Assembly: GCF_024628725.1 (NCBI RefSeq)
Contig: NZ_CP102409.1
Coordinates: forward strand, 1,149,001-1,213,000
Origin: Ruegeria sp. YS9
GTDB taxonomy: Bacteria; Pseudomonadota; Alphaproteobacteria; Rhodobacterales; Rhodobacteraceae
Length of the DNA: 64,000 bases
Reading direction: 5' to 3'
Numbering within the stretch: position 1 is the stretch's first letter; each line of letters opens with the position of its first letter. A program made the translations under genes and the position numbers. Of the stretch, positions 30,801 to 47,982 are shown piece after piece. The notes under the pieces were generated by a model, which searched no databases, was not told the origin of the DNA, and worked only from the letters and a program-made list of their open reading frames with translations.

Positions 30801-31514
30801 ATGCAGGGATTTGCATCAGAATTCAGCTCTGCAATCGCGCTGATCTTTGAGGGAGACTCAGAGCTGTGGGCGATTGTGCTGTTGTCCCTGAAAGTATCCG
30901 TGTTTGCGGTTCTGATTTCTGCCCTGATCGGCATGCCCGTCGGCGCCGCCCTGGCCGTGGCCAGGTTTCCGGGGCGGCGGATGCTGATCGTTCTGATGAA
31001 TGCCTTGATGGGGTTCCCGCCCGTGGTCGTGGGGCTGCTGGTCTATCTGATGCTGTCCCGCTCCGGCCCGTTGGGTGTGCTCGAGCTTTTGTATACCCCG
31101 ACGGCCATGATCATTGCTCAGGTCGTGTTGGTCACTCCCATTATCGCGGCATTGACCCGGCAGGTGGTCGAAATGCTGGCCGAGGAATATTCCGAACAGC
31201 TGCGATCACTGGGCGTGTCACGGCTGGCATCGGTCCCTGTGCTGCTGTGGGATGCACGGCTGGCATTGGTTACGGCCTTGCTTGCGGGGTTCGGGCGCGC
31301 CATTGCCGAGGTGGGCGCGGTGATCATCGTGGGCGGCAACATCAACCATGTGACGCGCGTGATGACGACGACGATCGCGCTGGAAACCTCGAAAGGAAAT
31401 CTGGCGCTGGCACTGGCCTTGGGGGCAATCTTGATCGGGATCGCGGTGGCCGTGAACGCGATGGTCAGCGCGGTCAGCCTGCGGGCCGAACAGGAAGGGG
31501 TGCGTCATGCGTGA
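30801..31514 (+). CDS. tupB: tungstate ABC transporter permease TupB
   Basis: A 237-residue permease with about five or six membrane helices. The cytoplasmic EAA-like loop is YSEQLRSLGVSRLASVPVLLWDAR, followed by GFGRAIAEVGAVIIVGGNINHVTRVMTTTI, a block strongly conserved in TupB-type permeases. It is the first gene of the tup operon and overlaps tupC by eight bases. Tungstate rather than molybdate specificity is inferred from TupA, two genes downstream. Confidence 0.9.
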   Translation: MQGFASEFSSAIALIFEGDSELWAIVLLSLKVSVFAVLISALIGMPVGAALAVARFPGRRMLIVLMNALMGFPPVVVGLLVYLMLSRSGPLGVLELLYTPTAMIIAQVVLVTPIIAALTRQVVEMLAEEYSEQLRSLGVSRLASVPVLLWDARLALVTALLAGFGRAIAEVGAVIIVGGNINHVTRVMTTTIALETSKGNLALALALGAILIGIAVAVNAMVSAVSLRAEQEGVRHA

Positions 31515-32241
31515 CCTGCTCTGCGACATGGTGAATTGCCTGAAGGTCGAGAACCTGCAAATCCGCAGTAATGGCAAGGCGTTGTTGGAGGTCTCGTCAT
31601 TGGATCTGGATGGGCCGGGACCAACCTTGATTCTTGGCCCCAACGGTGCAGGCAAAAGCCTGTTGCTGCGCTGTCTGCACGGGCTGATCACGCCGGATCG
31701 GGGGCGGGTCGTCCAGGATGGAAAACCGCTTGGCGCGGCACAGAAAGCCCGCCAGGCCATGGTATTTCAGAAACCGGTTCTGCTGCGTCGATCGGTTGCG
31801 GCAAACCTTGACTTCGTTCTCAAGCGTCAAGGCATGGGGCGAACGGCTCGTAAGGTCCGTATCGCCGAATTGCTGACCGAAGGAGGGCTGGACGGAAAGG
31901 CCAGACAACCCGCGCGGTCATTGTCCGGAGGGGAGGCGCAGCGATTGGCGATTCTCCGAGCGCTGGCATTGAACCCCGAGACCTTGTTTCTGGACGAGCC
32001 CACCAGCGCACTGGATCCAAGCGCGACCCAGATGATCGAACGAATGATATTGCGGGCGTCGGCTCGGGCTGTGCGGATCGTGATGGTGACGCATGATATC
32101 GGTCAGGCACGCCGTTTGGCCTCGGACGTGGTCATGATGCAGGGCGGACATGTCGTGGAACACGGTACGGCAAAACAGGTTTTGGAATCTCCCCAAAGCG
32201 ATGCGTCGCGCCGCTATTTGGCAGGCGGATTGGTAACCTGA
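31507..32241 (+). CDS. tupC: tungstate ABC transporter ATPase TupC
   Basis: A 244-residue ABC ATPase with Walker A LGPNGAGKSLLLRCL (about 44-58), signature LSGGEAQRLAILRALALNPE, Walker B LFLDEPTSALDPSAT and switch histidine in MVTHDIGQARRLA. It lacks the long TOBE extension seen in ModC-type molybdate ATPases, consistent with the TupC class. The ATG at 31507 overlaps tupB by eight bases; a later in-frame ATG exists, so the exact start is slightly uncertain. Confidence 0.9.
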   Translation: MRDLLCDMVNCLKVENLQIRSNGKALLEVSSLDLDGPGPTLILGPNGAGKSLLLRCLHGLITPDRGRVVQDGKPLGAAQKARQAMVFQKPVLLRRSVAANLDFVLKRQGMGRTARKVRIAELLTEGGLDGKARQPARSLSGGEAQRLAILRALALNPETLFLDEPTSALDPSATQMIERMILRASARAVRIVMVTHDIGQARRLASDVVMMQGGHVVEHGTAKQVLESPQSDASRRYLAGGLVT

Positions 32242-32263
32242 AAAAGAGAAAGAGGAGAGTGTG

Positions 32264-33079
32264 ATGTTCCGGAAACCAATTCGGGCAGCGGTGATAGCTT
32301 TGGGCCTGTTGACCAGCGCGGTTTCAGCAGAAGAACCATTTATTGTGGTGCAGTCGACAACGTCAACGCAGAACTCGGGACTGTTGGATTACATCCTGCC
32401 GTGGTTCGAAGCCGAATCAGGTGTCGATGTCCGTGTTGTGGCAGTGGGCACCGGTCAGGCCATTCGCAACGCCATCAACGGGGACGGGGATGTTCTTTTG
32501 GTTCACTCCAAACCGGCCGAGGAGAAATTCGTTGCTGACGGTTGGGGCGTGGAGCGGAAGGATTTGATGTACAATGATTTCGTTCTGGTCGGCCCCAAGT
32601 CTGACCCTGCCGGAATTCGCGGCGGCGCCGATGTTTTGGCCGCGCTCTCAAAAATCGCCGAGGCGGAAGCGCCGTTTGCATCACGCGGTGACGACAGCGG
32701 AACGCACAAGGCCGAACTGGGCTATTGGTCCGCGGCCGGGCTGGACCCTGCCGACGCCTCGGGTACGTGGTATCGAGAAACCGGATCTGGCATGGGGGCG
32801 ACCCTCAATGTGGCCGGTGGAATGGATGCCTACACGCTGACGGATCGGGCCACGTGGTTGTCTTTTGGAAACCGGGGAAACCTTGACGTTCTGGTCGAAG
32901 GGGATCCGCGCCTGTTCAATCAATACGGCGTGATCCTCGTGAATCCCGAAAAGCACGCGCATGTGCGGGCGGCAGCCGGCCAACGTTTCATCGACTGGCT
33001 GACGGGGCCGGACGGGCAGGAGGCGATCGCGTCGTTCAGGCTGGACGGGCAGCAGGTGTTCTTTCCGAACGCCGACTAA
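32264..33079 (+). CDS. tupA: tungstate-binding periplasmic protein TupA
   Basis: A 271-residue binding protein with a signal peptide (about 22 residues, cut after AVSA). The mature N-terminus holds the TupA signature STTSTQNSGLLDYILPWF, whose Thr-Thr-Ser-Thr contacts the oxyanion. Other conserved parts are DVLLVHSKPAEE, the FVLVGPKSDPAG strand, and FASRGDDSGTHKAEL, also an anion-binding loop. It ends with RFIDWLTGPDGQEAIASFRL. The ATG at 32264 has better spacing from AGGAG (6 bases) than the GTG at 32261. Very high tungstate affinity is known for the family. Confidence 0.93.
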   Translation: MFRKPIRAAVIALGLLTSAVSAEEPFIVVQSTTSTQNSGLLDYILPWFEAESGVDVRVVAVGTGQAIRNAINGDGDVLLVHSKPAEEKFVADGWGVERKDLMYNDFVLVGPKSDPAGIRGGADVLAALSKIAEAEAPFASRGDDSGTHKAELGYWSAAGLDPADASGTWYRETGSGMGATLNVAGGMDAYTLTDRATWLSFGNRGNLDVLVEGDPRLFNQYGVILVNPEKHAHVRAAAGQRFIDWLTGPDGQEAIASFRLDGQQVFFPNAD

Positions 33080-34140: not shown

Positions 34141-35403
34141 TCAGTTCCGGGCGCTTGTTGCGCGGCGCAGAAAAGCAATAAGATCCTGACGATCCTGAGC
34201 TTGTGTAATTCGCTGCATCGGCATCTTGGACCCTGGAATGTAATGGTCAGGCCCTTCGTCGAAAAGAGCATTTATTGTTTCGTCATTCCAAATGATATCA
34301 GAGCCTTGCAGCGTATCCGAGTACAAATATCCCGGTAACGTGCCCGCGCGTCTGCCGAAAACCCCGTGCAAGGAGGGACCTGCGCGGCGTTGGCTGTCGG
34401 GTGTCAGGCTGTGACAGATCGAGCATTTCCGCGCGAACTGACGCTCACCATTGTCCATCTCGTCGGGGTTTTGCAGAAAACTCGGCTCGGCAGAAGCCAT
34501 CTGTTGCCGGTCGGACAAGGTGGTGACTGGCCAACTGTACATGGCCTCGTCAATTCCGCCCGCATGGATGTTTTCACCATCGACCGAAAAGGCCAGGGCC
34601 CAGACTGGCCCCCGCAACGTTGCGCGAAAGTCCTGCGCGATGCGCCAGTCCGAGGTATCGATGACCATGATATAGCCTTCACCGTCGCCCACGGCCAGAA
34701 ACCGACGATCCGGGCTGAGCGCCAAGGCAAGGATCGGGCGACGATCCAGAGTGAAATCGCGTTCTTCACCGGTGGAAAGGTCCAGTATTCGGGTCACTCC
34801 GTCAACGGCACCGTAAGCGATCCAGTTGTCCTGTTCATTCAGGACCAGTTCGTTGATGCCGAACCCGTGTTCGATGAGCCGGGTGATCTCTTGTCCACTC
34901 CTTACGTCCCAAATGCGCAGCGATCCATCCATGCCCGCTGAATAAAGCTGTGTGCCGTCTGAAGAAAACACCACGGCGTTCACACCGCTTCCGGTCGGCC
35001 CAAGAGTTGTGGGGGCAGTTCCGTTCACGGGCCAAACCCCAATCGTTCCGTCCCAACTGGCGGTTGCGACGTGGGTCTTGGACGCTGCCAAACCCACGAT
35101 CTTGCCCTGATGTCGCCCAACCACGTCGCCGCCGGGCCACTTGCGCAGGGTGAAGTCATCTCCGGCCGAGTAGATGGCCGTGCCATTGAAGGCAACGGCG
35201 TTCACGGCGGCTTCGTGACCTTCCAGCCATTCGGGGGTCCGATCAGCCCAGAGCCCGACGGAATTGTCGAAGCTGGCTGTTGCGATCCGCCCGTCCGGGG
35301 CTGTGGCGATCCCCATGATTGGGCCGCCGTGTCCCTTGAGTGTGAAGAATTCGGCCAAGGCGGGCAGAGGGATCAGCGCCAGGGCCAGAACCAGCCCCCG
35401 CAT
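34141..35403 (-). CDS. WD40 beta-propeller fused to a c-type cytochrome domain
   Basis: A 420-residue secreted protein. A signal peptide (LVLALALIPLPALA) is followed by about seven WD40-type repeats over residues 20-295, for example GHGGPIMGIATAPDGRIATASFDNSVGLW and SVFSSDG/LYSAGMDGSLRIWDV-type blades. A monohaem cytochrome c domain fills 310-420 with haem motif CSICH (327-331) and a likely axial Met394 in PGSKMPM. It starts one base after the end of the fdhC gene (stop/start at 35404/35403). It should act in the periplasm, probably passing electrons or docking partners for formate dehydrogenase. Confidence 0.85.
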   Translation of the reverse strand: MRGLVLALALIPLPALAEFFTLKGHGGPIMGIATAPDGRIATASFDNSVGLWADRTPEWLEGHEAAVNAVAFNGTAIYSAGDDFTLRKWPGGDVVGRHQGKIVGLAASKTHVATASWDGTIGVWPVNGTAPTTLGPTGSGVNAVVFSSDGTQLYSAGMDGSLRIWDVRSGQEITRLIEHGFGINELVLNEQDNWIAYGAVDGVTRILDLSTGEERDFTLDRRPILALALSPDRRFLAVGDGEGYIMVIDTSDWRIAQDFRATLRGPVWALAFSVDGENIHAGGIDEAMYSWPVTTLSDRQQMASAEPSFLQNPDEMDNGERQFARKCSICHSLTPDSQRRAGPSLHGVFGRRAGTLPGYLYSDTLQGSDIIWNDETINALFDEGPDHYIPGSKMPMQRITQAQDRQDLIAFLRRATSARN

Positions 35404-36600
35404 CTATTCAGCAGGCGAGGCGGCGGTTTTGCCTGCCTCTTTTTCCTGAACTTCTTCCAGCCACAAAGAGTGGTGTTCACGGGCCCATTGTTCTTCGACC
35501 TCGCCGGTGCCCATGGCGTCAAAGGCGCCCTCCATTCCGACAGAGCCGAGATAGATATGCGCCACGATGATCGCAATGAACACATAAGCAACCATCACGT
35601 GCCAGACTTGGGCATATTGCATTTCTTCCTGCGGCGACATCTGCACCGGCAGGTTCAGGCCCATCATTTGCGGAATACCGGTCGAATTGGCGATCTGGAA
35701 GGTTTTGGCAAACAAGGGCATCTCGAACGGGAACAGCAGCGACAGACCCGACAGGCTGATCGAGACGCCCAGCAGGATGCAGGCCCAGAATATGATTTTT
35801 TGTCCGGCGTTGAACTTCTTTGCCGGTGGGTGGCTGTTTTTGGTGAACAACCCGCCACCTGCGGCCAGCCATTTCAGATCGACGCGGTTGGGGATGTTGT
35901 GGGCAATCCAGTTTACCGTGACGATGATCAGGCCCAGCATAAAGGCCCAGGCCAGATTGTTGTGCAACCACTTGCAGCCCTGCGCGAGGGTCGCAAAGCC
36001 CTCTTTCCCGAAAACCGGAATCAGGAAGTCGCGCCCATAAAGCGTCAGCAGGCCCGTGATGCCAAGGATCAGGAATGACCCGGCAAACAGCCAGTGGCCG
36101 AAGCGCTCGAACCCGTTGAAACGCGTGACCGTGCGTCCGGTTTTCTCGCCGTCGATGCGAATCTTGCCGCGGATCAGGAAAAACAACAGGATAATGCCCA
36201 GCATCCCGGCAATGACATAGGTGCCGTATTCGCGCAGCGGTCCGGTGCGGAAGGTCAGCCACCACATGCCGCCATCCTGAATCAGCACGCTGTCTGCCGG
36301 ACCATGAGAAGACACCGTCACATCAGCCGAGCCATAGCGCAAAGCGCGATACACGTCACTGTCCGAGGCCACACCGCGCGTGCCAAGCTGACCCAGCAAC
36401 CCCTCTGCATTGCCCTGACCTGTGTTCTCGGAACGATAGCTGTTGTCGACGGTTTCACCACGCTGCCGGGCGAGAATGTCTTCCAGGGTTGTTGCTCCAC
36501 CGGTCGAGGTGCGCTCATCTGCCGTGGGTTCAGAGGTCTCTTGCGCCCATGCGGCTCCGGTCAGAAAAATCGAAACCAGCAGATACTGGATCAGACGCAT
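35404..36600 (-). CDS. fdhC: formate dehydrogenase cytochrome b (gamma) subunit
   Basis: A 398-residue membrane subunit with an N-terminal signal peptide (LIQYLLVSIFLTGAAWA), a long periplasmic stretch to about residue 120 and then four or five membrane helices. Haem-ligand histidines are visible in RFNGFERFGHWLFAGSFLILG, in KWLHNNLAWAFMLGL, and in VWHVMVAYVFIAIIVAHIYLG. It anchors FdhAB and passes electrons to the quinone pool. The N-terminal periplasmic extension is longer than in E. coli FdnI/FdoI, as is usual for this type. Confidence 0.92.
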   Translation of the reverse strand: MRLIQYLLVSIFLTGAAWAQETSEPTADERTSTGGATTLEDILARQRGETVDNSYRSENTGQGNAEGLLGQLGTRGVASDSDVYRALRYGSADVTVSSHGPADSVLIQDGGMWWLTFRTGPLREYGTYVIAGMLGIILLFFLIRGKIRIDGEKTGRTVTRFNGFERFGHWLFAGSFLILGITGLLTLYGRDFLIPVFGKEGFATLAQGCKWLHNNLAWAFMLGLIIVTVNWIAHNIPNRVDLKWLAAGGGLFTKNSHPPAKKFNAGQKIIFWACILLGVSISLSGLSLLFPFEMPLFAKTFQIANSTGIPQMMGLNLPVQMSPQEEMQYAQVWHVMVAYVFIAIIVAHIYLGSVGMEGAFDAMGTGEVEEQWAREHHSLWLEEVQEKEAGKTAASPAE

Positions 36601-36627
36601 AGGGGTATCCTCCTGTGCAATTTCATA

Positions 36628-36978
36628 TCAGCGGTCAAACCCGCCAATTTGCTGGTGAAAGACGGCGCCGACCGGTGCGAGCGCTTCGCGAAGATCATCC
36701 TTGGCCGGACCATACACGTCCAACCCCACTGGCGTCAGAAGGGCCAGAAACCGTTCAGCAAAATTGGCACCGAAGTTTTGCATATGTATCATGGCATCTT
36801 CGGAACTGGCGTAGCGTTCGAAGATATGGACGGCCGAACCGGTCATGTGCCAATCATAGCTTCTGGCGCCGGTCTCGTGCTGCGTGGCCGTGACCATTTC
36901 TGCCATAAGCGCTTCGAACTCATCCTTTTTATCCAGATCAAGGTCAAGCTTCAGCAGCCAGTAAACATCATTGGTCAT
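36628..36978 (-). CDS. ABM-type (dimeric alpha-beta barrel) protein in the fdh operon
   Basis: A 116-residue protein that looks like an antibiotic-biosynthesis-monooxygenase fold: WLLKLDLDLDKKDEFEALMAEMV, the ETGARSYDWHMTGSAVHIFERYAS strand pair, and NFGANFAERFLALLTPVGLDVYG. Such dimeric barrels can be quinol or haem-related monooxygenases or simply binding proteins. It lies between fdhB and fdhC on the same strand, after a terminator-like hairpin. Its link to formate metabolism is positional only. Confidence 0.7.
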   Translation of the reverse strand: MTNDVYWLLKLDLDLDKKDEFEALMAEMVTATQHETGARSYDWHMTGSAVHIFERYASSEDAMIHMQNFGANFAERFLALLTPVGLDVYGPAKDDLREALAPVGAVFHQQIGGFDR

Positions 36979-37044
36979 GCGTGCCTCTCAAATATGTTTG
37001 GTGTGACGTTTCAGGAAACGGATCCCCGATCACATCACCTGAAA

Positions 37045-37076
37045 AGCCCCCCGCAAAGGGCGGGAGGCTGTTTTTT
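37045..37076 (-). terminator. terminator-like hairpin after fdhB
   Basis: A 10-bp stem with one mismatch (37045-37054 with 37060-37069) and a five-base loop. On the leftward strand it is followed by TTTTC, and on the other side there is a run of six A/T. It lies 20 bases past the fdhB stop and before the ABM gene, so it may lower expression of fdhC and the genes beyond relative to fdhAB. Confidence 0.6.
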
Positions 37077-37088
37077 CAAGGCCGGACT

Positions 37089-37682
37089 TCAGCCGTCTTT
37101 CTGGTCGTAGGCCGTGCCCCAACCCCAGGCGCCCGAACCGAAACCGCGCGCCACGACGCGTTCGCGGTAAACTGCGGAAACCACGTCGCCGTCACCGGCG
37201 AGCAGGGCCTTGGTGGAACACATCTCGGCGCAGATGGGCAGCTTGCCCTCGGCGATCCGGTTGCGACCGTATTTGGCGAACTCTGCGGTCGAGTGCGTTT
37301 CCTCAGGGCCGCCGGCGCAGAAGGTACATTTGTCCATCTTGCCGCGCGATCCGAAGTTACCCGCCTGTGGATATTGCGGCGCGCCGAAGGGGCACGCATA
37401 GAAGCAATAGCCGCAGCCAATGCACAGGTCCTTGGAGTGCAGGACGACCCCTTCTTCGTTCTGATAGAAGCAGTCGACCGGGCACACCGCCATGCAGGGC
37501 GCATCCGAACAATGCATACAGGCGACCGAGATCGAGCGTTCGCCCGGGTTGCCGTCATTGATCGTCACCACCCGGCGGCGATTGATGCCCCACGGCACCT
37601 CGTGTTCGTTCTTGCACGCGGTTACGCAGGCGTTGCACTCGATGCAGCGTTCAGCGTCGCAGAGAAACTTTGCTCTAGCCAT
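37089..37682 (-). CDS. fdhB: formate dehydrogenase iron-sulfur (beta) subunit
   Basis: A 197-residue four-cluster ferredoxin subunit. Cysteine groups are [51 protein letters not shown] and CTFCAGG...[10 protein letters not shown]. It lacks the C-terminal membrane anchor found in E. coli FdnH/FdoH, so it relies on FdhC for membrane attachment. It begins 12 bases after fdhA. Having no signal of its own, it is presumably exported with FdhA by the TAT system. Confidence 0.93.
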
Positions 37683-37694
37683 TTGTCGTCCTCC

Positions 37695-40589
37695 TTACGC
37701 TGCCCAGATCTTGCAGAGAGTCGCCTTGGTCTCCTGCATCTGGGTCACTGAATCATAGCCATAGGTCTGGGCGGTGTTGGTGCTTTCACCCAGCACATAG
37801 GGGTCTGCACCAGCGGGGTATTTCTCCCTCAGGTCCTCGCCCTGGAAATGGCCGCCGAAGTGGAACGGCATGAAGGCCACGCCGGCACCGACCCTGTTGG
37901 TCAGCATTGCCATCACCTTGACCTTTCCGCCCTCGGGACCCTCGACCCAGACCTGTGATCCGTCCCGAATACCAAGGTTGTTGGCGTCGCGCGGATTGAT
38001 CTCGACGAACATGTCCTGCTGAAGCTCGGCCAGCCACGGGTTCGACCGGGTTTCATCACCGCCGCCTTCATACTCGACCAGACGACCTGATGTCAGGATT
38101 ATCGGGTAATCCTTTGAAAAGTCGTTCTTTTGAATCGATGCGTAAAGGGTGGGCAGGCGATAGGCCTGACGGTCCTCGTAGGTCGGATAGTCGGCCACCA
38201 GATCGCGCCGGTTCGTATAGAGCGGTTCGCGATGCAGCGGGATCGGATCCGGGAAGGTCCAGACAACCGCGCGGGCCTTGGCGTTCCCGAAGGGCGCACA
38301 GCCATGTGCGATCGCGACCCGCTGGATACCGCCGGACAGGTCGGTTTTCCAGTTGGTCTTTGGCCCCGCCACGGCGTCGATGGCCGCGCGTTCCTCGGCC
38401 GTCAGATCACCGTCCCAGCCAAGATCCATCAGCATCTGCATCGTAAACTCAGGGTATCCATCCTGAATTTCCGATCCAACGCTATAGACCCCTTCGGCCA
38501 GCAGGTTGTCGCCGTCGCGCTCCACACCGAAACGGGCACGGAAGGTCAGGCCGCCTTCGGCCACCGGTTTGGACATGTCATAGAGGTTCGGTGTCCCCGT
38601 ATGGCCCATTTCCGGTGTGCCCCAGCACGGCCACGGCAGACCGTAGTATTCGCCGTCGTTTGGTCCACCAATGGCTTGCAACGTGGTTCTGTCGAACGTG
38701 TGCTGGTTGGCCATATGGCTTTTCAGACGTTCCGGCGACTGACCGGTATAGCCGATGGTCCAGAGGCCCGCGTTGAACTCGCGCGTGATGCTTTCAACAT
38801 TCGGGGTTTCGGGGTCTTCCATCTCGATATTGCGGAAGAACCGATCCGCCCAGCCGAACTTGTTGGCGAACTTGGCCATGATGACCTCGTCCGGCAGACT
38901 TTCGAACAGCGGGTCAACCACCTTGTCACGCCATTGCAGCGAACGGTTCGACGCCGTGACCGAGCCACGCGTTTCGAACTGCGTACAGGCCGGCAGCAGG
39001 TAAACGCCATCGGTGCGGTCATGCAGAACGGCAGAAACGGTGGGATACGGGTCGATCACGACCAGCATGTCCAGCTTCTCCATCGCCGTCTTCATTTCCG
39101 TCATCCGGGTCTGCGAGTTGGGCGCGTGGCCCCACAGAACCATGGCGCGGACATTGTTGTCCTGATCCATGTTCGCCGGGTCTTCCAGAACACCGTCGAT
39201 CCAGCGGGAAACCGGGATGCCGCGCTCGTTCTGCAACGGCTTGTCCTTGCCGTCCTTGTCCTTGATCGTGGCGAATTGACCGGCCAGCCACTCCGGGTCT
39301 TCTCCCCAGACGCGGGCCCAGTGACCCCATGCGCCTGCGGACAGGCCATAATAGCCGGGCAGGGTGTGGGACAGAACACCAAGGTCGGTTGCGCCCTGAA
39401 CGTTGTCATGGCCGCGGAAGATGTTGGTGCCTCCGCCCGAGGTTCCCATGTTGCCCAAAGCAAGCTGAAGTACGCAATAGGCGCGGGTGTTGTTGTTGCC
39501 GTTGGTGTGCTGGGTGCCGCCCATGCACCAGACAACCGTACCCGGACGGTTGTTGGCCATCGTGCGGGCAACACGCTTCAACTGCGACCCCGGAGTACCG
39601 GTGACGCGTTCCACCTCGTCCGGATTCCACTTGGCAACTTCTTCGCGGATCTGATCCATGCCCCAGACGCGGGTGCGGATGAACTCTTTGTCTTCCCAAC
39701 CGTTATCGAAGATGTGCCAGAGGATACCCCAGATCAGCGCAACATCTGTGCCGGGGCGGAAACGGACATATTCATCCGCATGCGCCGCGGTGCGTGTAAA
39801 GCGCGGGTCGCAGACGATCAGTGGCGCGTTGTTCTGCTCTTTTGCGCGCAGAATATGCAGCAGCGAGACGGGATGCGCCTCGGCCGGGTTGCCGCCGATG
39901 ATGAAGATCGCCTTGCTGTTGTGCATGTCGTTGTAGCTGTTGGTCATGGCGCCGTAGCCCCATGTATTCGCAACACCCGCAACGGTGGTCGAGTGGCAGA
40001 TACGGGCCTGATGGTCCACGTTGTTCGTGCCCCAATAGGCCGCGAACTTGCGGAACAGATAGGCCTGTTCGTTGTTGTGCTTGGCGGAACCCAACCAGTA
40101 TACGCTGTCTGGCCCGGATTCTTCGCGGATGCTCATCATGCCGTCGCCGATCTCGTTGATCGCCTCTTCCCAGCTGATGCGCTTCCACTCTCCGCCTTCC
40201 TTTTTCATCGGATATTTAAGGCGGCGTTCGCCATGGGCGTGCTCGCGAACCGATGCCCCTTTGGCGCAGTGTGCACCCAGGTTGAACGGGCTGTCCCAAC
40301 CGGGTTCCTGCCCGATCCAGACCCCATTCTGAACTTCGGCAACGACCGTACAGCCGACCGAGCAATGCGTGCAGACGGATTTGATATTTTCAACGGCTTG
40401 GTTTGCCGCTGTCTGGGCACTGGCTGGTGTCACGGTTCCACCCGTGGCGCTGATCGCGGCGAGGCCGCCGATCGTCAGGCCCGAGCCACGCAGAAATGCG
40501 CGGCGATCGACGGTTTTCTCGCCGACCTGGGACAGGATACTTGTCCGCTGGGGGCGTTTCGCAACCCCGTTGGTCTTTTTCCTAAGCAT
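37695..40589 (-). CDS. fdhA: periplasmic molybdo/tungsto-formate dehydrogenase catalytic subunit
   Basis: A 964-residue pterin-dependent oxidoreductase. A TAT signal (DRRAFLRGSGLTIGG, near residues 28-42) precedes the 4Fe-4S domain (CTHCSVGCTVVAEVQ and HCAKGASV). The metal ligand is cysteine, about residue 198 in ARICHSTTVAG; there is no in-frame UGA, so it is not a selenoenzyme. The conserved His follows that Cys. Molybdopterin-binding regions such as FIIGGNPAEAHP and the C-terminal dinucleotide-binding domain (PIILTSGRLVEYEGGGDE) are present. The GGGAGG binding site sets the start. A tungstate importer 5 kb away suggests that tungsten may be the metal. Confidence 0.95.
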   Translation of the reverse strand: MLRKKTNGVAKRPQRTSILSQVGEKTVDRRAFLRGSGLTIGGLAAISATGGTVTPASAQTAANQAVENIKSVCTHCSVGCTVVAEVQNGVWIGQEPGWDSPFNLGAHCAKGASVREHAHGERRLKYPMKKEGGEWKRISWEEAINEIGDGMMSIREESGPDSVYWLGSAKHNNEQAYLFRKFAAYWGTNNVDHQARICHSTTVAGVANTWGYGAMTNSYNDMHNSKAIFIIGGNPAEAHPVSLLHILRAKEQNNAPLIVCDPRFTRTAAHADEYVRFRPGTDVALIWGILWHIFDNGWEDKEFIRTRVWGMDQIREEVAKWNPDEVERVTGTPGSQLKRVARTMANNRPGTVVWCMGGTQHTNGNNNTRAYCVLQLALGNMGTSGGGTNIFRGHDNVQGATDLGVLSHTLPGYYGLSAGAWGHWARVWGEDPEWLAGQFATIKDKDGKDKPLQNERGIPVSRWIDGVLEDPANMDQDNNVRAMVLWGHAPNSQTRMTEMKTAMEKLDMLVVIDPYPTVSAVLHDRTDGVYLLPACTQFETRGSVTASNRSLQWRDKVVDPLFESLPDEVIMAKFANKFGWADRFFRNIEMEDPETPNVESITREFNAGLWTIGYTGQSPERLKSHMANQHTFDRTTLQAIGGPNDGEYYGLPWPCWGTPEMGHTGTPNLYDMSKPVAEGGLTFRARFGVERDGDNLLAEGVYSVGSEIQDGYPEFTMQMLMDLGWDGDLTAEERAAIDAVAGPKTNWKTDLSGGIQRVAIAHGCAPFGNAKARAVVWTFPDPIPLHREPLYTNRRDLVADYPTYEDRQAYRLPTLYASIQKNDFSKDYPIILTSGRLVEYEGGGDETRSNPWLAELQQDMFVEINPRDANNLGIRDGSQVWVEGPEGGKVKVMAMLTNRVGAGVAFMPFHFGGHFQGEDLREKYPAGADPYVLGESTNTAQTYGYDSVTQMQETKATLCKIWAA

Positions 40590-40694
40590 TTGTTTCCTCC
40601 CTTGCGCGCCGTGTATGCCACGGCTGGCTTGGTACTGCTGAAGCCGACGTCGGGGCCAATCGCAACCGTCAGTCGGGTGTGAAAACGTCCGATC

Positions 40695-40883
40695 CTAGAA
40701 CCGGGTGCTCTCGATGTAGGCGCGCGTATGCGCGGTATCCTGAATGCGGGTATCGTCTGTCGGCAGTTCGGCCGCTTCGGCTTTCCCGGTCAGGCTGGCG
40801 GTGGCAACGGCAGCTGGTGCTGCGGTTCCGGCCAGTTTGAGGAAGTCGCGGCGTGTGGCGCCTTCTTCCTTGGTCTTGCTCAT
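40695..40883 (-). CDS. 62-residue TAT-signal protein of the formate dehydrogenase region
   Basis: A small protein with a twin-arginine signal (ATRRDFLKLAGTAAPAAVA) followed by about 35 polar residues ending in TRAYIESTRF. It has a GGAGGAG-type binding site just upstream of 40883. Proteins of this size and signal are regularly found directly before the catalytic fdh gene. They are presumed TAT targets with a role in FDH assembly or as a small subunit, function unproven. It is 106 bases from fdhA on the same strand. Confidence 0.85.
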   Translation of the reverse strand: MSKTKEEGATRRDFLKLAGTAAPAAVATASLTGKAEAAELPTDDTRIQDTAHTRAYIESTRF

Positions 40884-40940
40884 GGGCTCCTCCTGTCCCA
40901 ATTGCGGTTTGGTGCCCACAGGGCACCGGCGATGTGCGGG

Positions 40941-41552
40941 CTACCCCGCCGTCATCCGGAACGCTTCGCGCTCGATCTCCATGAACACCCGACCGGCGGT
41001 GCCGACGGATGCATAGAGAACCGAGTTCTCGGCAGCTTCCAAATCCGAATAGAAATGTGCGGCCCAGGGGCCGATATGTTTGTTCCAGAACGCTTTCTGG
41101 TCACCAAGGGATGCCGGGCCGCCAAAACGCCCAACGATCATGCCTGCCATCATCTCCATCAATGAGGCGATGTTGTCCTCGGGCTCAAACACGTTCTGGG
41201 CGCGTGTGATCCCACGCACCGCCATGTCATTGCGAAGCTGCGCCAAAGGTTTCTCGTTCAGGAAGCCCGTGAGGTAGAAGCTGGCATAGGGCAGCAATTC
41301 GCCCCGACCCAAACCGATGAACAATGCATTGAATTCCCGTTCAGCGGCGGCGGGCTTGGTGACCTTGGCGACCCGCGCCATGGCTTGGATGGCCTGACCA
41401 AGATCAGTGTCATCACCGCTGAGGCCCGCCATTTGATCCAGCAGCATCTGGTCGGGCGGGCCGGCGAGCAGCAAGCCCAGAAAGTTGTAGAAATCCGCGC
41501 GCAGGCGATCCTCGGCTGAAACGTCCAGAGCGTGCGCGTCACTTGTGGTCAT
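40941..41552 (-). CDS. TorD/DmsD-family chaperone for formate dehydrogenase
   Basis: A 203-residue all-helical protein of the TorD family: RLRADFYNFLGLLLAGPPDQMLLDQMAGL at the N-terminus, EREFNALFIGLGRGELLPYASFYLTGF with the conserved PYAS(F/Y)Y block, and AGMIVGRFGGPA later. Such chaperones bind the TAT signal of molybdoenzymes and hold them for cofactor loading, so FdhA is the expected client. It starts a few bases after the DUF3306 stop with an AAGGA binding site, so the ATG at 41552 is used. Confidence 0.88.
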   Translation of the reverse strand: MTTSDAHALDVSAEDRLRADFYNFLGLLLAGPPDQMLLDQMAGLSGDDTDLGQAIQAMARVAKVTKPAAAEREFNALFIGLGRGELLPYASFYLTGFLNEKPLAQLRNDMAVRGITRAQNVFEPEDNIASLMEMMAGMIVGRFGGPASLGDQKAFWNKHIGPWAAHFYSDLEAAENSVLYASVGTAGRVFMEIEREAFRMTAG

Positions 41553-41556
41553 TCGG

Positions 41557-42138
41557 TCATCCTTCAAATTCAAATGTCATTCGACGTGGCACCGGGGGAA
41601 GGTCGACTTCTTCCGGCTCTTCCACCCGAGCGACGGAAACCGGCTCGGGAACGGGATCGGGTTCGACCGGCGCGGCCTCGGGTTCAGCGCGCGTACCGAC
41701 TTCGCCTTCGGGTGCATCATCTTTGGCCTCTTCCGCGTCGGCCGCCAGTGCTTCGATATGCGCCAGCATGCCTTTGCCAACCTGATAGGCGGTTTGCATG
41801 TTTTCGATCACGCAGGCCGCATCGGTATAGTCCTCGCCGTAATCAACCAGCCCGTCGACATTGGCCAGAACCGGGTTCAGCCGCCACAGCCGACGCAGGG
41901 CGCGGCGACGCAGGCGATCGGGCACGGCCTTGGCCATGAAGCCCGAAACATCGTCACCGGGTTGCAGGGTCTCTGGGTCGGGAAGGTTGAACTCGGCCAG
42001 AATCTCGGCGTCATCCTTTTCTTCCAGCTCCGCTTGCCGTTCTGCGATTACCTGTTCTTCAAGGGCCAGCGCTTCGGCTTTGGCTTCGGCCTGAACGGCG
42101 GCCTTTCGGCGAGACCAGAAACCATCGGGCCGGGTCAT
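41557..42138 (-). CDS. DUF3306 protein of the formate dehydrogenase cluster
   Basis: A 193-residue protein of the DUF3306 type. It opens FWSRRKAAVQAEAKAEA, has a charged coiled-coil-like segment, then AKAVPDRLRRRALRRLWRLNPVLANVDGLVDYGEDYTDAA, the family core (about 68-108). The C-terminal third is a Pro/Glu-rich low-complexity tail. No signal or membrane segment, so it acts in the cytoplasm. It overlaps DUF3305 by four bases. The family is known only by its link to FDH genes; function unknown. Confidence 0.87.
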   Translation of the reverse strand: MTRPDGFWSRRKAAVQAEAKAEALALEEQVIAERQAELEEKDDAEILAEFNLPDPETLQPGDDVSGFMAKAVPDRLRRRALRRLWRLNPVLANVDGLVDYGEDYTDAACVIENMQTAYQVGKGMLAHIEALAADAEEAKDDAPEGEVGTRAEPEAAPVEPDPVPEPVSVARVEEPEEVDLPPVPRRMTFEFEG

Positions 42139-42689
42139 TGCAGCGCCTTTCTCGGGGCGCGGTACACGTCCGACGTCTGCCGGATGCGCGCGTCACCCTT
42201 GCCGTCTTCAACCAGATCTGTCCGCTTCTTGTCGCGGCGGCGCTTGACGAACACTTCGTGCTGATGATGTTTCAGAGCGAAATCGCGAACCCAGGCAATC
42301 AACCCTTCGGTCATCGGGATCTTCTCGACAATTTCTTCGCCAGTATCCGCATAGTCCTGCCCCTCGAACGGAGAGGCGGTGATCAGCACTGCATTCAGGG
42401 GTGTTTCGCCCTTCAGTTCGTCCCGCAGCACAAGGTACAGCGAAGGCTGACCATCCGACAGGTTGACCATGTAGGCTTCGGTTTCATCTGCCCAGAGCGT
42501 CAGGGGCAGGGTGGCCGCGTGATACTCGACCGCATCGCCTTCACGGCGCAACTCCTGCCAGTCGGCCGGCCCCGCGCCGGGTAAAAGGGCCACGGCACGC
42601 CAGTTCCACCGGGCCCAACGTGTGACCCCGGGTGTCTTGCGCACGATGACGCCAACCGGCATTTCACTTTGGCTTGCGGCCTTGGCCAC
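42135..42689 (-). CDS. DUF3305 protein of the formate dehydrogenase cluster
   Basis: A 184-residue protein of the DUF3305 type: MPVGVIVRKTPGVTRWARWNWRAVALLPG, then EYHAATLPLTLWADETEAYMVNLSDGQPSLYLVLR. It ends in a basic segment (KHHQHEVFVKRRRDKKRTD) that may contact an acidic partner. No signal peptide. It is the first gene of the leftward chain DUF3305, DUF3306, TorD-type chaperone, small TAT protein, fdhA, fdhB. Its overlap with DUF3306 argues that the two proteins are made together. Function unknown; a step in FDH maturation is likely. Confidence 0.88.
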   Translation of the reverse strand: MAKAASQSEMPVGVIVRKTPGVTRWARWNWRAVALLPGAGPADWQELRREGDAVEYHAATLPLTLWADETEAYMVNLSDGQPSLYLVLRDELKGETPLNAVLITASPFEGQDYADTGEEIVEKIPMTEGLIAWVRDFALKHHQHEVFVKRRRDKKRTDLVEDGKGDARIRQTSDVYRAPRKALQ

Positions 42690-42952
42690 TGGCTCCTCCC
42701 CGAAAGGCTCTCACGTGCCTTTCCACGTCCACTATGGTACACAAACTGGCTTTGTGCCAAGCCTATGCTCTACGACTTTGGTCGTAGTCCAAGGTAGCAA
42801 CTGCGTGAGCAGGCCCCGTGAATGCTTGTGTTTCCTGGCATTTATTGCCGAAATTCAACCCTGTGCAGGAAATGCGGCAAGGGGTTGAAGTTGCTTTCCC
42901 GGGGGTACAGCCTAGTGTGCATGGAACCGGGACGGTTTCCCGAGGAGCGGAT
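42690..42952. promoter_or_regulatory. divergent control region of the fdh cluster with three inverted repeats
   Basis: This 263-base gap separates the leftward DUF3305-fdh operon from the rightward ferredoxin gene. It contains TGGC-TTTGT-GCCA (42747-42759), CTACGAC-TTTG-GTCGTAG (42770-42787, a perfect 7-bp inverted repeat) and GGCA-TTTAT-TGCC (42837-42849). Their clustering suggests operator or attenuator sites. I could match none to a known consensus. Confidence 0.5.
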
Positions 42953-44905
42953 ATGGCCACGAAACTTCTGCTATGTGATTGCGCCGGTACTCAGGTGCTG
43001 GACCCGGACGTGATTGAGAGCGCTTGCAGTATCAGGTGTTCCAGAGTGCATACCGCGCTTTGTACATCCGAACTGGAAACAGCCGCCAAGCTGATGCAGG
43101 AAGGCGAAACAGTCATTGCCTGCCTGCAAGAGCAGGAAGTTTTTCGGTCACTGGCCGAAGATCTGAATATCGACGCGCCCGGGATTGTCGATCTGCGCGA
43201 TCGGGCCGGGTGGTCCGACCAAGGTGCGGATGCGACCCCCAAGATGGCCGCATTGGCGGCCGAGGCCGTTCTGGCGCAACCGGTAACACCCAGTGTGGAT
43301 GTCTTCAGTGAAGGCACTTGTTTCATCATCGGGCCCGGTGCGGTGGCCTTTGATCTGGCTGAGCGTCTGGCGGATTCGTTGGCAGTGACCGTTATGACGA
43401 CTGATCTGTCGGAACCTCTGTCGCGGGACTATGACGTGGTGCGGGGGCGGTTGCGTTCGGTTTCCGGTGCGCTCGGTGGGTTTTCGCTGCGTCTGGACGC
43501 GCTTCAGCAGGTCGTGCCCGGTGGGCGCGGCGCGTTTGCATGGACCGATCCAAAGGACGGCGCGCATTCCGCATGCGACATTGTCATTGACCTGGCAGGA
43601 GAAACGCCTTTCGTACAGGCCCCGGCCAAGCGCGAAGGCTATCTGCGGGCTGATCCCAGGGATGCGGTTGCGGTGGAAAGGCTGGCTTTTGAAGCCGCGC
43701 AATTGGTGGGAACATTCGAAAAGCCACTTTATGTGCGGGTGGAAGAAACCCTGTGTGCCCATTCCCGGGCCGGGCAGGTGGGCTGTTCCAACTGTCTGGA
43801 TATCTGCCCAACCGGAGCGATTTCCCCGGCGGGCGAGTATGTTGCCGTCGATCCGATGGTATGTGCAGGCTGTGGTGCATGCGCCGCGCTGTGCCCTTCG
43901 ACGGCCATAACCTATGAAGACCCACCTGTTTCGGCGCTGTTGTCGCGGATGCATATTCTGGCTCGCACCTATCGACGGGCCGGCGGCACCGCGCCTCGGC
44001 TGCTTGTCCATGACGCCCACGGGGCCGAGATGATTAGGTTGGCCGCGCGTTTCGGGCGTGGATTGCCTTCGGACGTCATCCCTTTGGAACTGAACGTGAT
44101 ATCCGGCTTTGGCCATGCCGAGATGCTGGCGGCTCTGGCGCATGGGTTTGCACGGGTGGATGTTCTTTTGGCACCGTCGACCGAACGCGAAGCGCTGAAC
44201 CGGGAACTTGAATTGGCACATGCCATTGCAGGCCCAGAGGGCACCGGCCTGATTGATGAGGCTGACCCCGATGCGATGTCCGATCTGCTGTACGGGCAAG
44301 CGGTGCCCCGGCCTTTGTCCGATCCGGTTCTGCCTATGGGCAATCGCCGGCAAATTGCACGGCTGGCAGCGCAGGCGCTGAACCCGCAGGCCGACGCGCC
44401 TTTGCCATTGCCCGAGAATGCGCCTTACGGGGCGGTTGCAGTGAATACCGACAGCTGCACCCTGTGCCTCAGCTGCGTGTCGCTATGCCCATCCGGTGCC
44501 TTGATCGACAACCCGGACAAGCCGCAACTGAACTTCCAGCAAGACGCCTGTCTGCAATGCGGGATGTGCAAGACCATTTGCCCCGAGGATGCGATCACGC
44601 TTGTTCCACAACTTGATCTCAGCGACGCGGCCCTGTCACAGCAGGTTCTGAACGAAGAAGAACCTTTTGCCTGCGTGGAATGCGGGGCGCTGTTCGGCGT
44701 GAAGTCCACGGTCGAGCGGATCATGGAGAAGCTGTCGGGCACGCACCCGATGTTCGCGACTTCGGATCAGGCGCGGATGATCCAGATGTGTGACGATTGC
44801 CGGGTGAACGTGCAGTTCCAACACCAAGACAATCCGTTCCAGTCAAAACCCAGGCCTCGGGTCGTCACGACCGAGGATTACTATTCGGACAGAAAGGATC
44901 ACTGA
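42953..44905 (+). CDS. multi-cluster 4Fe-4S protein of the formate dehydrogenase cluster
   Basis: A 650-residue cytoplasmic iron-sulfur protein. The first ~60 residues are cysteine-rich (LCDCAGTQ...ACSIRCSRVHTALC). A ferredoxin domain at about 267-325 has an unusual first ligand set (CAHSRAGQVGCSNCLDICP) and a normal second (CAGCGACAALCP). A second ferredoxin domain lies at about 500-550 (CTLCLSCVSLCP and CLQCGMCKTICP). A CxxC pair at about 572 and another near 612 may bind zinc or a further cluster. The GAGGAG site sets the ATG at 42953. It is divergent from DUF3305 and ends overlapping the TupA-like cytochrome. Electron supply or cluster transfer to FDH is inferred. Confidence 0.82.
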   Translation: MATKLLLCDCAGTQVLDPDVIESACSIRCSRVHTALCTSELETAAKLMQEGETVIACLQEQEVFRSLAEDLNIDAPGIVDLRDRAGWSDQGADATPKMAALAAEAVLAQPVTPSVDVFSEGTCFIIGPGAVAFDLAERLADSLAVTVMTTDLSEPLSRDYDVVRGRLRSVSGALGGFSLRLDALQQVVPGGRGAFAWTDPKDGAHSACDIVIDLAGETPFVQAPAKREGYLRADPRDAVAVERLAFEAAQLVGTFEKPLYVRVEETLCAHSRAGQVGCSNCLDICPTGAISPAGEYVAVDPMVCAGCGACAALCPSTAITYEDPPVSALLSRMHILARTYRRAGGTAPRLLVHDAHGAEMIRLAARFGRGLPSDVIPLELNVISGFGHAEMLAALAHGFARVDVLLAPSTEREALNRELELAHAIAGPEGTGLIDEADPDAMSDLLYGQAVPRPLSDPVLPMGNRRQIARLAAQALNPQADAPLPLPENAPYGAVAVNTDSCTLCLSCVSLCPSGALIDNPDKPQLNFQQDACLQCGMCKTICPEDAITLVPQLDLSDAALSQQVLNEEEPFACVECGALFGVKSTVERIMEKLSGTHPMFATSDQARMIQMCDDCRVNVQFQHQDNPFQSKPRPRVVTTEDYYSDRKDH

Positions 44906-45627
44906 AGCTTAAGGGGGGCGCCCAAATCTGCGGCGTCGATGCGCGATACGAACGCAAGGATCGCGTCAAGATCATCCAATGTCATCTCAACCGGGTGAAT
45001 TGGGGAAGGGCGTTCGGGATCAAAAGGGGGCGTCAGCCCGTCGATCTGCGTGAATGCAGGGTGGGGGTTCAGGGCGAAAAACGCCTCGAACCGCCGCGAC
45101 CAGTCAGGCATTGCGCGCAGAACGGCGAAAGAGGGCGTCGACCCCAGGCCATTCATACGGTTCCTTGGCCCGATGACATGACAGCGCCCGCAATGGGTCA
45201 TCGACAATTCTTCGCCGAGTTGGGTGTCGCCTTCGACGATGTCACCGGATTCAACCACGGCAATATCAAAATTGGCAGAGTAGGGTTCTCCGTCTGCCGG
45301 AGCAAAGCTTTCCACCGTGCGCTTGCCGATGTCCGACTTCAGCCATTCCAGAAAACGGGCCTGGCGGTCACTGTCTTCGATACGCAGGTGATAGATCACC
45401 TCGCCGCGGGCAAAGACCGGATCACCGGGCGGAGCGGTTTCCAGCACCATAACCCCGGCGTCGTCTGCAATAACACGGATCCCGGTCTTGAGAGAGAAGC
45501 GAGGAAGGATATGTTGCAACAGGCCAGAGTCTTTAACCTCGGCCGGGGCCGCAAGGCCAATCGCCTCTTGTGGCCAAGAGGGGGTGGCAGAGAGCGTCAG
45601 GCTCAGGCACAAGAGGACAAAGCGCAT
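44899..45627 (-). CDS. cytochrome c protein with a shortened TupA-like binding domain
   Basis: A 242-residue secreted protein. After a signal peptide (about 19 residues) residues 25-55 (SGLLQHILPRFSLKTGIRV) closely match the start of mature TupA in this same window (SGLLDYILPWFEAESGVDV). Residues 90-113 (RFLEWLKSDIGKRTVESF) match its end (RFIDWLTGPDGQEAIASF). The roughly 150 residues between them in TupA are reduced to about 35. A monohaem cytochrome c domain follows with CGRCH at 146-150 and a candidate axial Met215. The gene is convergent with the ferredoxin gene (7-base overlap). A redox-linked periplasmic role in FDH function is inferred. Confidence 0.8.
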   Translation of the reverse strand: MRFVLLCLSLTLSATPSWPQEAIGLAAPAEVKDSGLLQHILPRFSLKTGIRVIADDAGVMVLETAPPGDPVFARGEVIYHLRIEDSDRQARFLEWLKSDIGKRTVESFAPADGEPYSANFDIAVVESGDIVEGDTQLGEELSMTHCGRCHVIGPRNRMNGLGSTPSFAVLRAMPDWSRRFEAFFALNPHPAFTQIDGLTPPFDPERPSPIHPVEMTLDDLDAILAFVSRIDAADLGAPLKLQ

Positions 45628-45749: not shown

Positions 45750-46811
45750 ATGAGTGTTCGTGACGCGGTTCTGGCGAACCTGAAAAAGATCACCGACCCG
45801 GTATCCGGGCAGGACATCGTAAGCGCGGGCATCGTGCGCGCCCTGAATGTAGATGGCGACACGGTACGCTTCGTGCTTGAGATCGACCCGAAGCACGCGG
45901 AAAAGATGGAACCCGTCCGCGCCACGGCTGAAAAGGCCGCTCAGATGGTGGAGGGCGTTGCAAATGTTTCGGCCTTGATGACCGCGCATTCCGACAAGGC
46001 TCCGCCGGAACTGAAACCGAAACCCAAGCCATCGCAAACCGGGCCGCAGGCGGTGCCGGGTGTGGATCGGATCATTGCCGTTGCGTCCGGCAAGGGTGGG
46101 GTAGGCAAATCAACCGTTTCGGCCAACCTTGCCTGCGCATTGGCCGCAGAAGGTTGGCGTGTGGGTCTGCTGGACGCCGATGTCTACGGGCCGTCGCAGC
46201 CCCGGATGCTGGGTGTCTCGGGCCGCCCGGCCAGCCCTGACGGCAAGACGATCCTGCCGCTGCGCAACCACGGCGTCACCATGATGTCGATGGGCTTGAT
46301 GACCAATGAAGGTCAGGCGGTTGTCTGGCGCGGGCCGATGCTGATGGGTGCGCTGCAACAAATGATGAGCCAGGTGCAATGGGGCGCGTTGGATGTTCTG
46401 ATCGTCGATCTGCCACCCGGTACAGGCGACGTGCAACTGACGCTGAGCCAGAAGTTCCAGGTGGACGGAGCCATTGTCGTCTCGACGCCGCAAGACGTGG
46501 CCCTGATCGATGCCCGCAAGGGGATCGACATGTTCAATCAGCTCAAGACACCCATCATCGGGATGATCGAAAACATGTCCACGCATATCTGTTCGAACTG
46601 CGGGCATGAAGAACACGTTTTCGGTCATGGAGGTGTCAAGTCCGAGGCAGAGGCGCTGGGCGTGCCGCTGCTGGGCGAAATCCCCTTGCATCTGGACATC
46701 CGGGTCGCCGCTGACGGAGGCGCGCCCATCGTGGTCAGCAAACCTGACAGCCCGCAGGCCGAGGCATTCCGCAAGATCGCCCGCGACATGATTGCCAAAG
46801 GCAACGCATGA
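45750..46811 (+). CDS. apbC: Mrp/ApbC-family P-loop ATPase, Fe-S cluster carrier
   Basis: A 353-residue protein. Residues 4-75 form the DUF59/MIP18-type domain, and a Pro/Lys linker leads to the deviant Walker A GKGGVGKSTVSANLACAL (about 114-131). The Mrp motif CSNCG (about 280-284) is the cluster-bridging CxxC. Other family marks are LDADVYGPSQPRMLG and DLPPGTGDVQLTL. Mrp/ApbC proteins deliver 4Fe-4S clusters to apo-enzymes. It starts the chain apbC, lipoate-ligase-like, DUF6505, each overlapping by four bases, so in this setting it probably serves FDH maturation, although it might be the housekeeping copy. Confidence 0.9.
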   Translation: MSVRDAVLANLKKITDPVSGQDIVSAGIVRALNVDGDTVRFVLEIDPKHAEKMEPVRATAEKAAQMVEGVANVSALMTAHSDKAPPELKPKPKPSQTGPQAVPGVDRIIAVASGKGGVGKSTVSANLACALAAEGWRVGLLDADVYGPSQPRMLGVSGRPASPDGKTILPLRNHGVTMMSMGLMTNEGQAVVWRGPMLMGALQQMMSQVQWGALDVLIVDLPPGTGDVQLTLSQKFQVDGAIVVSTPQDVALIDARKGIDMFNQLKTPIIGMIENMSTHICSNCGHEEHVFGHGGVKSEAEALGVPLLGEIPLHLDIRVAADGGAPIVVSKPDSPQAEAFRKIARDMIAKGNA

Positions 46812-47506
46812 GCCAGCCGGTTTTCCCACCCTTGCTGACGGGCCACCCGGTTCAGGGTGGGGAAGACCCGTTCGAGCGCGCGCTGGCAATGGCTGCGCTG
46901 GGCTGTGATGCGGGGACGGTGGTTTACAATATTCAGGCGGATTTCCTGCGGGTGGCAATTGTTTTTGCCCCCGAGGTGCCGTTGCAGGATGCGGTGGTGA
47001 TGTTGCCACTCTGCGCTGTGGGATTCCAGAACGCGCTGGGCGCCTTGGCCCCACCAGAACTTGCGGTGCATCTGGGTTGGGATGGTCTGATTTGCGTGAA
47101 CGGGGCGCGTTGCGGCCGGTTCCGGACGGCGGCGTCGGCATCAATGCCTCAGGAAGAGCCGGACTGGCTGGTCGTCGGTTGGGAACTGACGCTGTTGCAA
47201 ACCAGTGATGCGCCGGGTGAAACCCCAGATATCACCGCGCTGTACGATGAAGGCTGTGCCGAGGTTTCTGCAACGCAGCTGGTGGAAAGTTGGTCACGGC
47301 ATATGTTGACCTGGCTCAACCGTTGGCAGGAGGATGGCAACGCATCCTTGCACGCCGAATGGATGGGCCTGCTGCGCGGCGTGGGCGAACCGCTGATCGA
47401 TGGTGGCGTATTCCTTGGAACGGATGAACGTTTCGGGATGCTGATCCGCGACGGGGTCGATACGCATCTGCGCCCCCTGACCGACTTGTTGGAGAACCGA
47501 GAATGA
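46808..47506 (+). CDS. biotin/lipoate-ligase-like protein (DUF4444 type)
   Basis: A 232-residue protein with the alpha-beta fold of biotin/lipoate protein ligases: an N-terminal half with FERALAMAALGCDAGTVVYN, and the core VHLGWDGLICVNGARCGRFRTAA where a ligase would have its lysine loop. Here that loop lacks the usual GR(K)G-Lys signature, so ligase activity is doubtful. The C-terminal part has VSATQLVESWSRHMLTWLNRW, the DUF4444-like segment. It overlaps apbC (ATGA) and DUF6505 (ATGA). It may be a repurposed scaffold binding a cofactor in the FDH pathway. Confidence 0.75.
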   Translation: MSQPVFPPLLTGHPVQGGEDPFERALAMAALGCDAGTVVYNIQADFLRVAIVFAPEVPLQDAVVMLPLCAVGFQNALGALAPPELAVHLGWDGLICVNGARCGRFRTAASASMPQEEPDWLVVGWELTLLQTSDAPGETPDITALYDEGCAEVSATQLVESWSRHMLTWLNRWQEDGNASLHAEWMGLLRGVGEPLIDGGVFLGTDERFGMLIRDGVDTHLRPLTDLLENRE

Positions 47507-47982
47507 AACTGGCCCGAGCGATCCATTTCGACGAAAGCGACATGAACGTGTTTCATTCCCCGGCGCGCACCGGTGAGTGGTGCGTTTCGGGCGGGTTCGA
47601 GTTTTCGAACTGGGGTCAGGGTGATCTTGAAGGCAAGGCGCGACAGGCCTTTGCGAACGGTTGGCTGGGATTGGAAACCTTTGGCCGGGTAACTTTTGTG
47701 GCCGTGACGCAGATCGAAGCCGCAGAGAAAAAACAGATCACGCGTGATCTGGCCGAACATTTTGTGCAGTTCTATGGCGCACCTTCGGTCGAGGCCGCAT
47801 TGGGCGTTGCGCTAGCTGAAATCGACCACATGTCAGAGTTGTGCGAAGACCATACGGCCAACACGCTGTTGACCGTCGCAAGGGAATTGACCGACACAGG
47901 CGTGCACGAAGCTTTTCGGGTCATCACTCCACAGGACGCGGAGCTGGAGGCGCTCGCGGTTCACGGTTCGCTGGACGATTAG
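47503..47982 (+). CDS. DUF6505-type protein, last gene of the apbC operon
   Basis: A 159-residue protein I recognise only as a Rhodobacteraceae conserved family (DUF6505-like). It opens KLARAIHFDESDMNVFHSPA and has GEWCVSGGFEFSNW, then a helical C-terminal half with acidic residues (ALAEIDHMSELCEDHTANTLLTVAREL). No signal or membrane helix. It is translationally coupled to the lipoate-ligase-like gene and its stop overlaps that of the convergent flavin reductase gene. Function unknown; co-occurrence with FDH maturation genes is the only clue. Confidence 0.75.
   Translation: MKLARAIHFDESDMNVFHSPARTGEWCVSGGFEFSNWGQGDLEGKARQAFANGWLGLETFGRVTFVAVTQIEAAEKKQITRDLAEHFVQFYGAPSVEAALGVALAEIDHMSELCEDHTANTLLTVARELTDTGVHEAFRVITPQDAELEALAVHGSLDD

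Follow-up and report, generated by a model that had tools for sequence, protein, structure and literature searches.

The window (the whole stretch of 64,000 nucleotides analysed, from contig NZ_CP102409.1 of Ruegeria sp. YS9) carries at 44899..45627, on the minus strand, an open frame of 242 codons with a single HCGRCH motif; coordinates and strand are those given by the sequence-only reading that preceded this analysis. The gene encodes a putative signal peptide, a domain derived from lobe A of the tungstate-binding protein TupA, a linker, and a haem c domain. A convergent polyferredoxin-like gene (42818..44905, plus strand) overlaps its end by 7 bases, and its divergent neighbour encodes an Mrp/ApbC iron-sulfur carrier (45750..46811, plus strand). 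A formate dehydrogenase-like cluster (34141..42689, minus strand) encodes a WD40-cytochrome c, a cytochrome b, a 4Fe-4S subunit, an FdhA-like protein (TIGR01591, 480.8 bits against a cut-off of 666), a TorD-like chaperone, DUF3306, and DUF3305. The permease and ATPase genes tupB and tupC (30801..32241, plus strand) precede tupA (32261..33079, plus strand), 12 kb from the cytochrome gene; the tupA product is full length, with tung_bind_TupA as its best NCBIfam match (E 1.3e-64; 218 bits, below the equivalog cut-off of 400). Beside tupBCA, a gene at 33129-34001 (minus strand) joins a helix-turn-helix (HTH_17) to a binding-protein-like domain (PBP_like, PF12727), and has homologues near tupA in two other loci (L114 and L116); it is perhaps an oxyanion-responsive regulator. 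An Rfam scan of the window returned no family at gathering score.

The cytochrome itself divides into four parts, all on the minus strand: i) residues 1-20 (45568..45627), a putative Sec signal peptide recognized by eye; ii) residues 21-120 (45268..45567), the TupA-derived domain, defined by profile matches, a predicted structure (pLDDT block means 92-97), and a search of the organism's own genome; iii) residues 121-134 (45226..45267), a linker of low model confidence (block mean 59); and iv) residues 135-242 (44902..45225), the haem c domain, recognized from stand-alone homologues and from a Pfam Cytochrom_C match that is below threshold in the window protein (16.2 bits against a cut-off of 21.3) and is found at E<=0.1 in 62 of 73 relatives. 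The predicted model (pTM 0.52) has a single lobe-like domain ahead of the haem domain and no two-lobed fold with a central cleft; it does not predict how the two domains are placed relative to each other. We collected 108 distinct fused relatives, which together with the window reference (probably a repeat of one of them, L001) give an alignment of 109 rows. The attached CGRCH haem domain described earlier is borne out by this alignment, in which C146, R148, C149, and H150 of the motif C146-G-R-C149-H150 (45178..45192) are present in all 109 rows. H189 (45061..45063) is likewise found in every one of the 109 rows, and the haem domain has no invariant methionine, which suggests a histidine, candidate H189, as the second axial haem ligand.

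The first hint of a relation to TupA came from an unbiased single-protein search of the whole own genome, which gave three hits at E<=10: TupA (E 0.16), a frame resembling a cytochrome (E 0.05), and the query. Single-sequence searches with the window cytochrome are too weak to decide the matter, and a Pfam scan of it found no binding-protein family, only the sub-threshold Cytochrom_C. A profile of 24 close relatives (A1), searched against 385 alphaproteobacterial genomes, matched 71 of them at E<=0.001, the matches being of three types: full fusions, long frames matched over approximately residues 1-77 only, and the haem half only. Of 12 long frames fetched, 11 have a second match near the end (L024 has its second match elsewhere), and the top NCBIfam family was TupA in all 10 that were scanned, always below the equivalog cut-off. 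Since profile A1 includes signal peptides, we repeated the tests with a profile of the mature front half (96 rows, signal peptide excluded). In profile-profile comparison by hhalign, cytochrome residues 22-58 (45454..45564) align with residues 4-40 of mature TupA (probability 96.8, E 2.8e-10, score 64.5), and residues 86-120 (45268..45372) with residues 214-248 (probability 95.0, E 3.6e-8, score 52.5); both pieces are collinear with the TupA profile, and hhalign and the own-genome search together place the corresponding parts of tupA at 32339..32449 and 32969..33073 on the plus strand. By comparison, the top score from 200 column permutations of the front-half profile was 22.7; the reversed profile scored 13.5, the haem half against TupA 13.3, and the best of 13 neighbouring gene families, three of them sparse (9, 12, and 3 rows), 18.9. 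When the own genome was searched in six frames with the front-half profile, the only non-self matches at E<=10 were the two ends of TupA (5.1e-5 and 0.014). A profile search of PDB sequences likewise ranked two TupAs first, 3muq (1.1e-5) and 5my5 (3.3e-4), followed by 3cvg, 4g23 (an unrelated RNase P, E 0.0012), and the TupA 3lr1.

The alignment to TupA that had been proposed by eye is therefore correct and far above chance (64.5 and 52.5 against a control maximum of 22.7), with two amendments: the homology begins 12 residues before the SGLL at which it had been thought to start, and, since 173 TupA residues between the aligned pieces are replaced by 27 in the cytochrome, some 146 central residues are missing from the window protein rather than about 115; a deficit of about 105 fits the longer relatives. 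Derivation from a tungstate-binding protein, as first suggested, is supported by the profile matches and their controls, by the predicted structure, and by the specificity of the own-genome search, and we regard it as near certain that the front half of the cytochrome descends from TupA.

Fold comparison of the predicted lobe also ranks TupA structures first; ModA and ferric-binding proteins fit the fold as well, with lower Z than TupA. The TupA-like part is thus predicted to be TupA-like in structure, not unrelated to the binding-protein fold, and its two ends are conserved among the fused orthologs. The description of the protein as keeping the two ends of the binding fold holds insofar as both ends are homologous and conserved, but together they are more aptly viewed as a single folded lobe, lobe A. 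A Foldseek search gave no match at E<=0.001. One longer relative superposes with TupA at 1.6 A across 125 residues; for the longer forms (7 rows), hhalign recovers only the C-terminal TupA match (probability 97.8) and no N-terminal match, and hmmsearch recovers both. We also sought an intact TupA-cytochrome fusion with the longer form as query, but the 6 proteins found at E<=0.001, the query included, are all of 270-272 residues, so none of them keeps lobe B. Lobe A has been trimmed in the lineage of the window protein, lobe B is missing, and the ligand motif of TupA has been lost.

A tree of 72 columns gathers the lobes into one clade (100/99), whose position among TupAs is unplaced. In the same tree, three Rhodobacteraceae TupA genes (L102:6549-7424, L123:13250-14062, and L125:5842-6840) form a separate long-branched group. 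In another genome (G016, contig C48, 12882-14536), several matches to the lobe profile fall in frames of 366 and 569 codons, perhaps neighbouring TupA genes.

According to the accessible portion of one structural account, the TTTS motif of TupA sits in lobe A and the ligand residues R118, T124, and D170 in lobe B (PMC5517513). Equivalents of TupA T10 and S12 are retained together in none of the 109 rows, and TupA region 40-214, with R118, T124, and D170, has no counterpart in the hhalign alignment of the cytochrome; the features of TupA-style binding and transport set out in that portion have accordingly been lost, and the earlier characterization of the protein as a probably non-transporting derivative is supported. 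In one relative (L166) a histidine lies near the expected position of TupA H59. TupA and the fusions have in common S/T-G-L, L-P-x-F, F-x-D/E-W-L, and a glycine at 101; the basic residues R43 (109 of 109 rows) and K47 (108 of 109), at the two ends of 45487..45501 on the minus strand, are invariant or nearly so in the fusion only. Among 43 close relatives (903 pairs, of which 882, 809, and 590 were usable), the lobe has a median dN/dS of 0.166, the haem half one of 0.058, and the linker (residues 118-134) one of 0.357, all rough values because median dS is approximately 1.1-1.4, near saturation. To judge from these ratios, the lobe is under purifying selection, less tightly than the haem half.

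Other Alphaproteobacteria have homologs of the haem half without a lobe. Seven of the 11 stand-alone loci fetched lie beside genes of a formate dehydrogenase-type cluster; in the other four (L119, L120, L128, and L129) the fetched stretch contained no cluster gene, nor were cluster genes found near the two stand-alone homologs in genus g328 (L160 and L161). In locus L117 the stand-alone gene stands exactly between Mrp and ferredoxin, matching the order in the window, and in L113, L114, and L115 tupA lies within about 1.1 kb of the stand-alone haem gene, making it plausible that the fusion of lobe and haem domain arose locally. Pfam gave no family name for the L117 protein and only sub-threshold cytochrome matches for those of L113 and L160. 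These two lobe-less haem homologs of genus g328 (L160:9151-9585 and L161:9275-9832), in two Rhodobacteraceae genomes, lie away from the formate dehydrogenase cluster, and the clusters of these genomes (L189 and L190) have no such cytochrome gene. The haem-domain tree requires three changes, and places L117 and L160/L161 among the fused forms (90/88 and 80/54); losses of the lobe are thus possible, at modest support.

The neighbourhood was sampled in the best 80 of 312 loci, 70 of which have complete flanks. All 70 contain genes for the FdhA-like protein, the 4Fe-4S subunit, cytochrome b, the TorD-like protein, DUF3305, DUF3306, ferredoxin, and Mrp; the order Mrp-fusion-ferredoxin is kept in 69 of them, and the WD40 propeller-cytochrome c fusion within the cluster (34141-35403, minus strand) is present in 68. 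A lipoate/biotin ligase-like gene with DUF4444 and a DUF6505 gene (46808-47982, plus strand) adjoin Mrp in all 70. Pairs of DUF3305 and DUF3306 have been reported in 60% of dmsD-fdhGHI operons, in the available text of that study (PMC4464133). Among 390 genomes of the order, the cytochrome gene is present in 132 (E<=1e-10), as an unbroken fusion in 129, as a stand-alone gene in two, and interrupted by an internal stop close to a contig end in one. DUF3305 is present in 199 genomes, among them 131 of the 132 with the cytochrome gene, a co-occurrence count that ignores shared ancestry. Linkage to the neighbouring formate dehydrogenase, to which the sequence-only reading had assigned the protein, is supported by both samples. 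Further afield, a sample of the class added full fusions in two genomes of another family, and 398 genomes drawn from the phylum contained full fusions in 7, all of the window's own family.

Computation thus establishes the TupA origin, the two-domain architecture, the loss of the motif, the linkage to the cluster, and the selection; the role of the cytochrome in the formate dehydrogenase system is a reasoned guess. The haem motif, the signal peptide recognized by eye, and the gene neighbourhood are the grounds for proposing electron transfer or docking. On the joint reading that we favour, at a probability of roughly 0.55, TupA lobe A has been fused to a haem c protein whose haem would serve a periplasmic formate dehydrogenase: the cytochrome would be exported by its putative signal peptide and loaded with haem; the haem would pass electrons to or from the cluster's FdhA-like enzyme, for which a Tat signal was likewise recognized by eye; and the orphan lobe, no longer tungstate-binding, would dock towards or stabilize FdhA or a different exported subunit (the WD40-cytochrome c, for example), with R43 and K47, its conserved basic residues, perhaps providing the contact. 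Three observations count against such a role: i) the cluster already has cytochrome b and usually the WD40-cytochrome c as electron carriers; ii) the cytochrome gene is absent from 68 of the 199 DUF3305 genomes, and in the 7 of these that were inspected (L181-L186 and L188) the cluster is otherwise complete, with ferredoxin and Mrp adjacent; and iii) no cluster genes adjoin four of the 11 stand-alone homologs or the two of genus g328.

It is rather unlikely, in our judgment, that the lobe is neutral or generally stabilizing and has no specific partner, the haem half being an electron carrier for formate dehydrogenase or something else. Such a passive lobe would agree with the adjacency of lobe-less homologs to the same cluster genes, with the trimming, and with the faster evolution of the lobe than of the haem half, but it sits poorly with persistent purifying selection, with invariant residues absent from TupA such as R43, and with the unbroken state of nearly every fusion in the order (129 of 132). 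More doubtful still is the idea that the orphan lobe docks on the permease TupB in a manner made redox-dependent by the haem, competing with TupA and matching the import of tungstate to the condition of the formate dehydrogenase chain; were it true, the protein would be a redox-gated mimic of a transporter's own binding protein, with the redox state of the chain regulating import. Every one of the 132 genomes with the cytochrome gene has a full TupA, and in the window tupBCA is 12 kb away; yet TupA is present in 198 of the 199 DUF3305 genomes with or without the cytochrome, so the association is not specific, and the residues peculiar to the fusion, R43 among them, differ from those of TupA. 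That the lobe is an oxyanion half site from which the dehydrogenase or TupA would receive tungstate or molybdate, we consider very improbable: the descent from TupA and the proximity of a Mo/W enzyme of the formate dehydrogenase type would suit it, but T10 and S12 are kept together in none of the 109 rows, and R118, T124, and D170, as placed in the portion of PMC5517513 cited above, belong to the missing lobe B. Chance similarity to TupA, which the weak single-sequence signals (E 0.16 in the own genome) and the lack of a Pfam binding-protein family and of a Foldseek match at E<=0.001 might have suggested, is rejected with hardly any residual probability by the permutation, reversal, and neighbour-family controls, by the matching of both ends independently and in the correct order, by own-genome specificity, and by the first rank of TupA in structure comparison.

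The TupA lobe-cytochrome is a real architecture, and we recognized no description of such a fusion in the open-access literature searched. It differs from TupA (NCBIfam NF041772; PDB 5my5, 3lr1, and 3muq) in having neither lobe B nor the TTTS motif and in its added haem c domain; TupA is a two-lobed clamp, which the cytochrome cannot be. From the stand-alone haem c homologs of alphaproteobacterial formate dehydrogenase clusters (for example L113-L118), which have the same haem domain and often the same neighbourhood, it differs in its TupA-derived lobe. As one lobe of TupA has been kept and the other, together with the tungstate-binding motif, removed, it seems that a protein for binding a nutrient was pared down and put to new use within an electron-transfer protein. 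The family documents steps leading from a two-lobed transport receptor, by way of what looks like an entire single lobe, to a mini-domain that has been trimmed, each joined to a haem protein and under selection; it indicates that a single binding-protein lobe can be retained as a domain and given a new function. The formate dehydrogenase adjoined by this uncharacterized cytochrome is common in Rhodobacteraceae, its DUF3305 marker occurring in 199 of the 390 genomes of the order sample.

In mode of action, not descent, the nearest functional analogy is that of XoxG and XoxJ: a cytochrome and a periplasmic-binding-protein-like protein that serve one periplasmic metallo-dehydrogenase, and which, in the part of the source available, are both needed for XoxF-dependent growth, loss of either mimicking loss of the dehydrogenase in lanthanum medium (PMC7391723). 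XoxG and XoxJ are separate proteins and their enzyme is a lanthanide methanol dehydrogenase, whereas here one chain would combine the roles that those two split. Closer at hand, the WD40-cytochrome c at 34141-35403 is another cytochrome of this formate dehydrogenase cluster to which a module has been added; it too joins a cytochrome c domain to a likely interaction module, in its case a WD40 propeller rather than a binding-protein lobe.
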